Of a stretch of 38,133 bases of DNA, positions 24,950 through 28,013 are shown piece after piece. The stretch comes from Candidatus Omnitrophota bacterium (GTDB lineage: Bacteria > Omnitrophota > Gorgyraeia > Gygaellales > Profunditerraquicolaceae), in the NCBI GenBank assembly GCA_028712505.1, contig JAQTQC010000014.1, positions 1-38,133 of the forward strand, in the 5' to 3' direction. The translations under genes and the position numbers were made by a program. Position 1 is the first letter of the stretch, and each line of letters opens with the position of its first letter. Below the pieces are notes generated by a model. That model was not told the DNA's origin and did not search any database. It saw nothing but the letters and a program-made list of their open reading frames with translations.

Positions 24950-25020
24950 AGCGGGTGAGCGGAATCGGACCGCCATATGCAGCTTGGGAAGCTGCCATTC
25001 TACCACTGAATTACACCCGC
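24950..25020 (-). tRNA. tRNA-Gly (CCC)
   Basis: The 71-nt sequence folds as a cloverleaf: 7-bp acceptor stem (GCGGGTG/CACCCGC), D arm with ATTC/GAAT and GG in the loop, 5-bp anticodon stem (GCAGC/GCTGC) with loop TTCCCAA giving anticodon CCC, and a T arm with GGCGG/CCGCT. The discriminator is U, as in glycine tRNAs, and CCA is not encoded. One oddity: the T loop reads TCCGATT, with C where U55 is nearly universal. It lies after thiC and before the NlpD-like gene. Confidence 0.93.
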
Positions 25021-25154: not shown

Positions 25155-26438
25155 CTATTTCTTCGAGCAATCTTCCATCAGCTTGATCGAACAATATTTC
25201 CCGCACATTGTGCATACGTCGGAAAATTCAGGCTTACTGGATAAACGATACTGTTTTGCTCTTTCAGGATTTATTGAAAGCTGGATCTGCTTTTTCCAAT
25301 CCCTGGCTTTACGGGCAGAGGAGATATCTCTATCCCAGCCTATAGCCAGACCCCTGCGCTTAACTAAATCTCCCGCATGAGCAGCAATCCGTGAAGCAAT
25401 GACCCCTTCCCGCACATCTTCTACTGTTGGATGACGCAGATGTTCAGCCGGAGTTACATAACAAAGAAAATCTGCGCCAAAACTGGCAGCTAAAGAACCG
25501 CCGATCGCGGATGTAATATGGTCATAGCCGGGAGCAACATCGGTAACTAAAGGGCCTAACACATAAAAAGGAGCCCCGTTACAATATTTTTTCTGCAAAA
25601 GTATATTTTTCTTGATTTGATCCAACGGAACATGCCCGGGCCCCTCAACCATAACCTGTACCCCTCTTGCCTGGGCACGTTTTGCCAATGCACCAAGAAT
25701 CTTCAATTCCGTAATCTGAGCTTTATCCGTAGCATCTAAGATTGAACCCGGCCTCAAACCATCTCCCAGGCTTAAAGTTACATCATATTGATTAGCGATA
25801 TCGAGGATTTGTTCAAAATGAGTATAAAAAGGATTTTCTTTTTTATGGTATTTTATCCAATTAGCAATAATCGCTCCACCCCGGGAAACCAGGCCCATAA
25901 GCCTTTTTTGCTTCTTGAGGGCTTTAAGACTTGTCCGAGTTACGCCGCAATGAATGGTAAAAAAATCCACCCCCTGTTTTGCCTGATCATTCAATACTTC
26001 AAGAATATCCTCAGCGCTGAATTCGATAAAATTATTATTCTTTTTCTGGGCCCGGACAGCCGCCTCATAGACAGGTACAGTACCTACGGGAACAGTTGAG
26101 AATTTTAGAACTTCCCGCCTCATCTTACTCAAATCCCCTCCCACGCTCAAATCCATCAGCGCATCTGCACCATGTTCTATAGCAACCTTAAGTTTTTCAA
26201 TTTCATCGGGAATGCTTGATTCATCGGTAGAGGTACCGAGGTTAGCGTTGATTTTAGTAGAGAGGCTACTGCCTATGGCGCAAGGTTTACTGATTTTATG
26301 ATTTATATTTAAAGGGATAACCACCTTGCCGGCCCGGATAAGCCGCATGAGTTGGATTGGCCGGACACCTTCAAGACGGGCGACCTTACGCATAAGCCCG
26401 GTTACTATATTTTTCTTTGCGTATTCTAATTGGGTCAT
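25155..26438 (-). CDS. thiC: phosphomethylpyrimidine synthase
   Basis: The 427-residue radical SAM enzyme converts aminoimidazole ribotide to hydroxymethylpyrimidine phosphate for thiamine. ThiC signatures include NANLGTST, DLSVGGDL, FFTIHCGVT, SRGG, SLGDGLRPGS and VMVEGPGHVP. The cluster site near the C-terminus is C409, C412, C416 (CTMCGKYC), one residue shorter than the CX2CX4C of the long enzymes, as I remember for the short anaerobe-type ThiC. It overlaps thiE by four bases. No TPP riboswitch is seen in front. Confidence 0.96.
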   Translation of the reverse strand: MTQLEYAKKNIVTGLMRKVARLEGVRPIQLMRLIRAGKVVIPLNINHKISKPCAIGSSLSTKINANLGTSTDESSIPDEIEKLKVAIEHGADALMDLSVGGDLSKMRREVLKFSTVPVGTVPVYEAAVRAQKKNNNFIEFSAEDILEVLNDQAKQGVDFFTIHCGVTRTSLKALKKQKRLMGLVSRGGAIIANWIKYHKKENPFYTHFEQILDIANQYDVTLSLGDGLRPGSILDATDKAQITELKILGALAKRAQARGVQVMVEGPGHVPLDQIKKNILLQKKYCNGAPFYVLGPLVTDVAPGYDHITSAIGGSLAASFGADFLCYVTPAEHLRHPTVEDVREGVIASRIAAHAGDLVKRRGLAIGWDRDISSARKARDWKKQIQLSINPERAKQYRLSSKPEFSDVCTMCGKYCSIKLMEDCSKK

Positions 26439-27064
26439 TTTATCTTAAGATAGCTTTCTTTAACTTTCTTAAATAACCGGCTTGCCACACAAGCAGGATT
26501 ATCCGCTTTTAGAATTGCCCGGGCTACGGCAATCCGCTTAGCCCCACAAGCGATGATTTGCCCTAAATTAGCTTCATTGACATCGCCGATTGCAAAATAC
26601 GGTATTCTTATCCTACCCTTAAGCTGACGCAAAACCCTTAGCCCGATTGGCCTGTATTCAGGTTTAGTGGCAGTAGAATATACCGGGCCGATACCGATAT
26701 AATCCGCACCATCTTTTTGCGCTTTCAAAGCCTGTTTAAGGCTATGACAGGATATACCGATAATCTTATCTTTTCCCAATAAAATCCTTGCCTGCTTCAG
26801 AGGAAGATCCCCCTGCCCCAGATGCACGCCGTCGGCGCCGGACAAAAGAGCCAGATCGATATAATCGTTGACAATAAAGAGCGTTTTAGTCCCGTTTAAA
26901 AGCTTGGACAGCTTAACCGCCGATTTTAATACCTGCGATTTAGCAGAAAACTTATCCCGTAATTGGATTATCCCTACCCCGCAAGAAGACAGCTTTGCAT
27001 AACCCGGTTTATCGATGATCAGGTAAAGAAGAGACTTTTTTAAAAGAATCTTTCTCGATTTCAT
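26435..27064 (-). CDS. thiE: thiamine phosphate synthase
   Basis: The 209-residue TIM-barrel enzyme joins HMP-PP and thiazole phosphate. LFIVNDYIDLALLSGADGVHLGQGDLPL (about 62-90), IGISCHSL and GPVYSTATKPE are its signatures, and GDV near residue 160 follows. ATG 27064 gives the full length but overlaps thiD2 by 56 bases. Removing one A from the A6 run at 27036-27041 would fuse the two proteins in frame (FKK joined to SLLYLIIDK), so an ancestral ThiD2-ThiE fusion is plausible. Confidence 0.94.
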   Translation of the reverse strand: MKSRKILLKKSLLYLIIDKPGYAKLSSCGVGIIQLRDKFSAKSQVLKSAVKLSKLLNGTKTLFIVNDYIDLALLSGADGVHLGQGDLPLKQARILLGKDKIIGISCHSLKQALKAQKDGADYIGIGPVYSTATKPEYRPIGLRVLRQLKGRIRIPYFAIGDVNEANLGQIIACGAKRIAVARAILKADNPACVASRLFKKVKESYLKIK

Positions 27065-27461
27065 AAACTTTATACCTGAGCCTTTTAAAAGATAAAGCCG
27101 TCTTTTCGTCGATTAATTTGGCGAATTCTTCGAGCACGCGCAAGGATTCTTTTACTCTCTGGATATTGGCCCGGAAAATATCTTGGCAACTGGAACGTTG
27201 CAATTCTCCACGGGAGTTCAATCTGCCTACATCAGCGCCGCTATTGCGCTCCCCGAGCAACGCAGAAACAGGATAAACCTTCCTTGCTACACGGTCAATC
27301 TCATGCCTGATTTGCTTAAAAGACGCCGTGAGCTTATGGTTATCCAGAACAAAACGCGCTATCTCCTCACAAACGCGCAACCCTTCTTTAACCCGATTCA
27401 GGTTGGCATCGATAATCCGATAGATATTGCTATTTTTCCGTAAAACCTTAACGCCCTTCAT
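27009..27461 (-). CDS. ThiD2-like domain protein (HMP-P kinase family)
   Basis: The 150-residue helical protein contains RIIDANLNRVKEGLRVCEEI near the N-terminus and ANIQRVKESLRVLEEF in the second half, the two related repeats of the domain usually found at the N-terminus of ThiE (ThiD2, Pfam PF17792). The family includes monofunctional HMP-phosphate kinases; no ordinary ThiD is seen in the window, so this could supply HMP-PP. ATG 27461 has GGAGG 8 bases upstream and is preferred to TTG 27497 and ATG 27476. Confidence 0.82.
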   Translation of the reverse strand: MKGVKVLRKNSNIYRIIDANLNRVKEGLRVCEEIARFVLDNHKLTASFKQIRHEIDRVARKVYPVSALLGERNSGADVGRLNSRGELQRSSCQDIFRANIQRVKESLRVLEEFAKLIDEKTALSFKRLRYKVYEIEKDSFKKVSSLPDHR

Positions 27462-27500
27462 CCCCTTTTCCTCCATATAGACAAATGGGGATTGCAAAAG

Positions 27501-28013
27501 TCATTTATCTCCAGAAAAACAGGCGATCTTATTGATTATCGCACTGGTTGAACGGCCATTGACTAACTTTACGGTTTGCACCTTGCCGCCATAACTTTCG
27601 ACAAAATCCGCTCCGATAATCTTTTTCTTACTCCAATCCGAACCCTTAACCAAAATATCCGGCTTAAGCGCCATTATCACTTTAAGCGGATTGGTTTCTT
27701 TGAACAAAACTACAAAATCTACACACCCTAACGCTTCAACCACCTTTAAACGATCTGTTTCATTGATAATCGGACGGTTCTTGCCTTTAATTTTTTTAAT
27801 CGAAGAGTCGCTATTAACTCCGACGACCAAATAATCTCCTTTGGCCCGGGCATCCTGCAAGTATTTAGTATGGCCGTAATGCAGGATATCAAAACAGCCA
27901 TTGGTAAAGACTATACGCTTACCGTTTTTCTTAAGGCGTTCAATTTTTCGCTTAAGAGCGGAAAGAGAACTTATCTTTGTTCCTGACAAAGCTCTTGCTC
28001 GATCATTTCGCAT
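27501..28013 (-). CDS. rfaE2: D-glycero-beta-D-manno-heptose 1-phosphate adenylyltransferase
   Basis: The 170-residue protein has FTNGCFDILHYGHTKYL (about 36-52), the nucleotidyltransferase HxGH-like motif, and GSDW and GRSTS later. It is the C-terminal, adenylyltransferase half of HldE standing alone, and makes ADP-heptose. The kinase half (HldA) and GmhB are not in this window, so the pathway must be completed elsewhere. The start overlaps gmhA by 43 bases. Confidence 0.9.
   Translation of the reverse strand: MRNDRARALSGTKISSLSALKRKIERLKKNGKRIVFTNGCFDILHYGHTKYLQDARAKGDYLVVGVNSDSSIKKIKGKNRPIINETDRLKVVEALGCVDFVVLFKETNPLKVIMALKPDILVKGSDWSKKKIIGADFVESYGGKVQTVKLVNGRSTSAIINKIACFSGDK

Follow-up and report, generated by a model that had tools for sequence, protein, structure and literature searches.

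Organization of the thiD2-thiE-thiC locus

The window, that is, the whole stretch of DNA that was analysed, is one entire contig of 38,133 nt from a 1.40-Mb genome in 42 contigs. It carries thiD2, thiE and thiC in a single minus-strand run, with the following features:

27501-28013, minus strand: gene with a heptose-phosphate adenylyltransferase domain, in the same run as thiD2-thiE-thiC
27009..27461, minus strand: thiD2, open reading frame for a ThiD2-family HMP-phosphate kinase (PF17792, E 5.5e-40, 137.1 bits)
26435..27064, minus strand: thiE, thiamine-phosphate synthase (PF02581, E 8.4e-56, 188.6 bits; TIGR00693 above cut-off)
25155..26438, minus strand: thiC, HMP-phosphate synthase (PF01964, E 8.6e-190)
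24950-25020, minus strand: tRNA gene, the sole Rfam match in the window
27009..27064, minus strand: 56-nt same-strand overlap, thiE lying +1 relative to thiD2 (the length counts the thiD2 stop)
27062..27064, minus strand: nested thiE ATG; its A and T are the final two bases of the invariant ThiD2 Tyr codon TAT (27063-27065), and its G comes from the codon that follows
27036..27041, minus strand: A6 run (T6 on the plus strand), the proposed slip site, at thiE codons 8-9 (ATG = 0)
27023..27028, minus strand: Leu-Tyr codons of the first strand of ThiE, 12 codons past the nested ATG
27009..27011, minus strand: thiD2 stop codon, built from bases of the ThiE Asp-Lys codons

The thiD2 start is the ATG at 27461, with a TTG at 27497 as a possible alternative, and thiE starts at an ATG and encodes a product of 209 amino acids. 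Both genes are intact family members, with PF17792 and PF02581 matches above cut-off and no internal stops. A preliminary description of the locus had placed the thiD2 stop 56 nt within thiE, which agrees exactly with the coordinates 27009-27064, and its account of the T6 at 27036-27041 on the plus strand and of the frame relation between the two genes was likewise correct. Reading by eye also reproduced its observation that one A fewer would join the frames as DSFKK-SLLYLIIDK. It proposed three origins for this arrangement: that the gene had split naturally and gained a new ATG, that polymerase slips at the A run and so yields both forms, or that the assembly is wrong.

At the other end of thiE, its stop and the thiC start share a 4-nt ATGA overlap (26435-26438), a classical coupled form that the preliminary description had passed over, so that the unusual long thiD2-thiE overlap adjoins a classical thiE-thiC one. 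An Rfam search of the window returned no TPP riboswitch at threshold.

Conservation of frame and spacing in Candidatus Omnitrophota

ThiD2 was present in 169/195 relatives and in 318/352 genomes of the phylum, two sets that overlap, while 26 and 34 genomes, respectively, gave no ThiD2 match. The ThiD2 loci read in Candidatus Omnitrophota numbered 237 (149 + 59 + 29), a selection that leaves out many matches from the 352-genome set. Using a thiE profile built from the loci read, thiE was detected downstream of ThiD2 in 177 of the 237 loci, in the +1 frame in 162 of them, in frame 0 in 8 and in frame 2 in 7. The +1 set spans 44 families and 126 genera, some of the families lying outside the class of the window. 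As controls we used the 59 anchored ThiD2 loci with no thiE in the fetched stretch, where the sequence after ThiD2 can be short (177 bases in L021, 578 in L061) and thiE may lie beyond it; one locus at a contig end (L313, G146) could not be anchored on the conserved Tyr of ThiD2 and was dropped. Most of the genomes are metagenome bins, and one vote per genus was the sole correction for relatedness, made without a tree. The best 80 loci in the named genome collection were also nearly all from Candidatus Omnitrophota/Omnitrophica metagenome bins, the top ThiD2 match among them showing 75% identity.

The distance from the invariant Tyr codon of ThiD2 to the Leu-Tyr motif of ThiE was 37 nt (1 nt plus 12 codons), in the window as elsewhere. 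The 12-codon spacing was found by script in 153 of the 162 +1 loci and by eye in one more, G119, which has Trp for Leu, giving 154; G136 and G335 have 11 codons, and six loci (G158, G184, G345, G346, G347 and G375) are not nested, which leaves 156 nested loci. When 16 members of the window's genus, window included, were aligned, all showed the same frame and spacing. The comparison with relatives proposed in the preliminary description therefore shows an overlap that recurs across the phylum in one frame and spacing, and no oddity of one contig. The 12 ThiE residues before Leu-Tyr (27029-27064 in the window) carry a recurring pattern over 120 genus representatives, with Met at position 0, Lys/Arg at 3 and 4 and Leu at 7, for which dual coding accounts in part.

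These data bear directly on the proposal that a mistake in sequencing or assembly at the A run split a gene that is in reality fused. Homopolymers are error-prone and the genome is in 42 contigs, but an identical frame and spacing in 154/162 +1 loci, in a set of 44 families, is not what such an error would leave behind. The spacing in the window equals the consensus, which indicates that six A is the correct count, and with five A the ThiE frame would no longer match its own ATG. We consider an error of this kind to be almost out of the question.

Evidence for a thiE start nested in thiD2

An in-frame thiE start was present in all 156 nested loci (121 with the ATG at Tyr, 12 with another ATG and 23 with GTG or TTG only), compared with any start in 24/59 control loci over the same stretch. 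Since TAC cannot form it, an ATG at Tyr needs TAT, and the Tyr codon was TAT in 142/162 +1 loci versus 33/59 controls (Fisher 1.2e-6), a difference retained with one vote per genus (107/126 versus 26/49, p 2.4e-5). At the other Tyr codons of the same coupled ThiD2 genes TAT was used in 213/330 cases.

The distribution of stops in the thiE frame locates the start. Among the 119 loci with the ATG and 12-codon spacing, +1-frame stops occurred upstream of the ATG (32 at codon -5, 13 at -8 and 21 at -10), while at each codon from 0 to 12 there were none, although synonymous resampling predicted 35.7 ± 5.5. In the controls, 15/59 had a +1-frame stop at codon +2. Stops in codons 0-3 were thus found in 0/119 loci versus 15/59 controls (p 1.7e-8; 0/87 versus 15/49 at genus level, p 4.6e-8), while in codons -5 to -1 there was no difference (33/119 versus 19/59, p 0.60). 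Coding constraint on the downstream frame, as in an overlapping gene pair, therefore begins at the nested start and not earlier, and the disappearance of thiE-frame stops exactly from the ATG indicates that ThiE is read from there, upstream of the A run. Among the 34 loci with 12-codon spacing but no ATG, codon +2 is a stop in three, which fits a thiE start further down in them. A TTG two codons after Tyr was present in 18/39 loci without the ATG versus 28/123 with it (p 0.008) and 16/59 without thiE (p 0.08), so that compensation for a missing ATG by this codon is only suggestive.

From these sequence comparisons, thiD2 and thiE very probably encode two separate proteins, with the thiE start nested inside thiD2. 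Of the three origins first proposed, the natural split with a new ATG comes closest to this, but nothing shows that a split was recent: the two-gene, +1, nested-start layout is usual in the phylum, its outlying classes included, and the loci read include few fused genes (G139, G130 and G164).

The A run and true ThiD2-ThiE fusions

Slippage of RNA polymerase or of the ribosome at the A6, with a net shift of +1, would give a regular or programmed ThiD2-ThiE fusion, alone or beside the separate proteins. Consistent with this, the frame is fixed at +1, at least six A in a row lie between the landmarks in 75 of 153 coupled loci, and fusions of the two domains occur in nature, as captured by the profile PRK02615. 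However, such runs were nearly as common in loci without thiE (21/59, p 0.09; for at least seven A, 45/153 versus 13/59, p 0.31), and they are expected here because the stretch is lysine-rich. In the alignment, 21/137 loci have exactly A6 in the columns that the window's run occupies, so neither alignment nor run counts point to the conserved slip site of a programmed +1 frameshift. Nor was the downstream reading frame ever without its own start, as such a frameshift would have it in at least some members (0/156 nested loci). Loci of this type were sought as candidates for an obligate frameshift and none was left; G003 and G129, flagged as startless by an automatic motif search that had picked a later motif, were dismissed using the fixed spacing.

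The frame protection itself also argues against slippage as the way thiE is made. The thiE frame is free of stops from its ATG at codon 0, which lies 23 nt before the run, a protection that slippage at codons 8-9 would not require; because it starts upstream of the run, slippage there leaves it unexplained.

The existence of such fusions in nature, as the preliminary description had stated, was borne out by three single-ORF, in-frame examples in the phylum (L025 in G139, L318 in G130 and L309 in G164) and by a fourth in Haliovirga abyssi. Their linkers, taken as running from the conserved Tyr as far as the residue preceding the motif Tyr and counted by eye, measure 26 (G139), 20 (G130), 31 (G164) and 19 (Haliovirga abyssi) residues, while the imagined window fusion would have 12 between the same landmarks. 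The linker lengths, from few examples, thus speak against a fusion in the window, and the earlier statement that the proteins would fuse cleanly with no lost residues holds as geometry, although true fusions carry much longer linkers. The fused-enzyme profile PRK02615 (NF002727) leads in the same direction: the window proteins share its two domains and their order and match separate halves of it, but they are two ORFs in different frames scoring 216.2 and 131.4 bits, neither of which reaches the cut-off of 335, and the landmark spacing in the profile is about 21 by its coordinates, if gapless, versus 12 in the window. On this evidence, regular or programmed slippage appears very improbable, although a rare additional slip may occur. 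A variant in which the 37-nt dual-coded module also yields, by A-run slippage, a little ThiD2-ThiE fusion whose 12-residue linker aids assembly, the spacing being kept for that reason, seems to us at least as far-fetched.

Probable coupling of thiE initiation to thiD2 translation

Under the reading with two separate proteins and a nested start, thiD2 and thiE in the thiD2-thiE-thiC run would each be intact and translated separately. Initiation of thiE would take place at T-ATG-aa on the invariant Tyr codon of ThiD2, in the +1 frame, while reading of thiD2 would continue to its stop, 56 nt of overlap from the thiE start. Ribosomes on thiD2 could keep the thiE start site open, and such translational coupling might match the amounts of two consecutive enzymes, which take HMP-P to HMP-PP and then to thiamin phosphate.

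Shine-Dalgarno-like tetramers before the ATG were not enriched (5/87 versus 2/49 genus representatives), and it is on this account that we infer a probable dependence of thiE initiation on thiD2 translation. An AGG codon for the conserved Arg was considered as an internal Shine-Dalgarno element and rejected, as it showed no enrichment (33/105 versus 16/40). The manner of coupling is constrained by distance. Reinitiation is described as strictly local in the available part of Huber et al. 2023 (PMC10666635), a study of overlaps of -4 and -1 nt. Like those genes, thiD2 and thiE are overlapping genes of one pathway that are likely coupled, and thiE-thiC has exactly the -4 ATGA form, with a start a few nucleotides from the upstream stop as in termination-reinitiation. 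In contrast, 53 nt separate the thiE start from the thiD2 stop codon that follows it, a distance that misfits simple local reinitiation and favours a site kept open by thiD2 ribosomes.

Alternatively, thiE may initiate independently of thiD2, the layout persisting for no other reason than the difficulty of undoing it. The part of Sabath et al. 2008 (PMC2542354) available to us accounts for long same-strand phase-1 overlaps without invoking selection, and the absent Shine-Dalgarno enrichment settles neither side. The nested layout can be left, however, as indicated by the 59 anchored ThiD2 loci without thiE downstream and by 21 loci with another layout. We regard a stable overlap without coupling as the less likely reading, if a possible one, and retain dependence on thiD2 translation as the probable one.

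Relation to known overlaps

The overlaps described in that portion of Sabath et al. 2008 resemble thiD2-thiE in being on the same strand, with a one-nucleotide shift and a start inside the coding sequence of the upstream gene; thiD2-thiE differs in having the thiE start placed on an invariant Tyr codon, at a spacing that stays fixed across the phylum. Long phase-1 overlaps are thus of a known kind, and it is the depth and fixed spacing of this one that are notable. The conserved frame transitions of Antonov et al. 2013 (PMC3711429), as far as the accessible sections describe them, share with it overlapping ORFs that have fused homologues elsewhere, and the authors warn that such pairs can mimic a frameshift; for thiD2-thiE the comparison favours initiation instead. 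A word search of the main text of that paper gave neither 'thiamin' nor 'ThiE', and we found no paper on a thiD2-thiE overlap in the available portions of the literature on ThiD2/ThiE (including PMC12345177) and on overlapping genes in Omnitrophota.

As found, thiD2-thiE is an ordinary, well-formed gene pair, and what looks like a fusion broken by a frameshift is how the phylum normally arranges these genes; automatic frame repair, or a label of pseudogene or sequencing error, would damage a correct annotation. The pair is also a clean case in which sequence by itself, through the avoidance of stops in a second frame, locates a nested start codon, and its deep overlap with locked spacing would lend itself to tests of whether two consecutive enzymes are coupled.

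Predicted thiamin pathway of the genome

Elsewhere in this genome there is a strong Thi4-family match (G000:C13:29968-30660, L324; 278.5 bits), and a search of the genome for ThiG gave no match; given these two results, Thi4 is the probable source of the thiazole moiety of thiamin. Matches to the families of the classical HMP kinase (PF08543; 31.9 and 27.8 bits) and of the thiazole kinase (PF02110; 33.8 bits) were weak and partial. Judged by family, ThiC, ThiD2, ThiE and Thi4 could jointly make thiamin phosphate. Thiamine pathways are reported for >75% of 204 Omnitrophota species genomes in the available part of PMC10066038.
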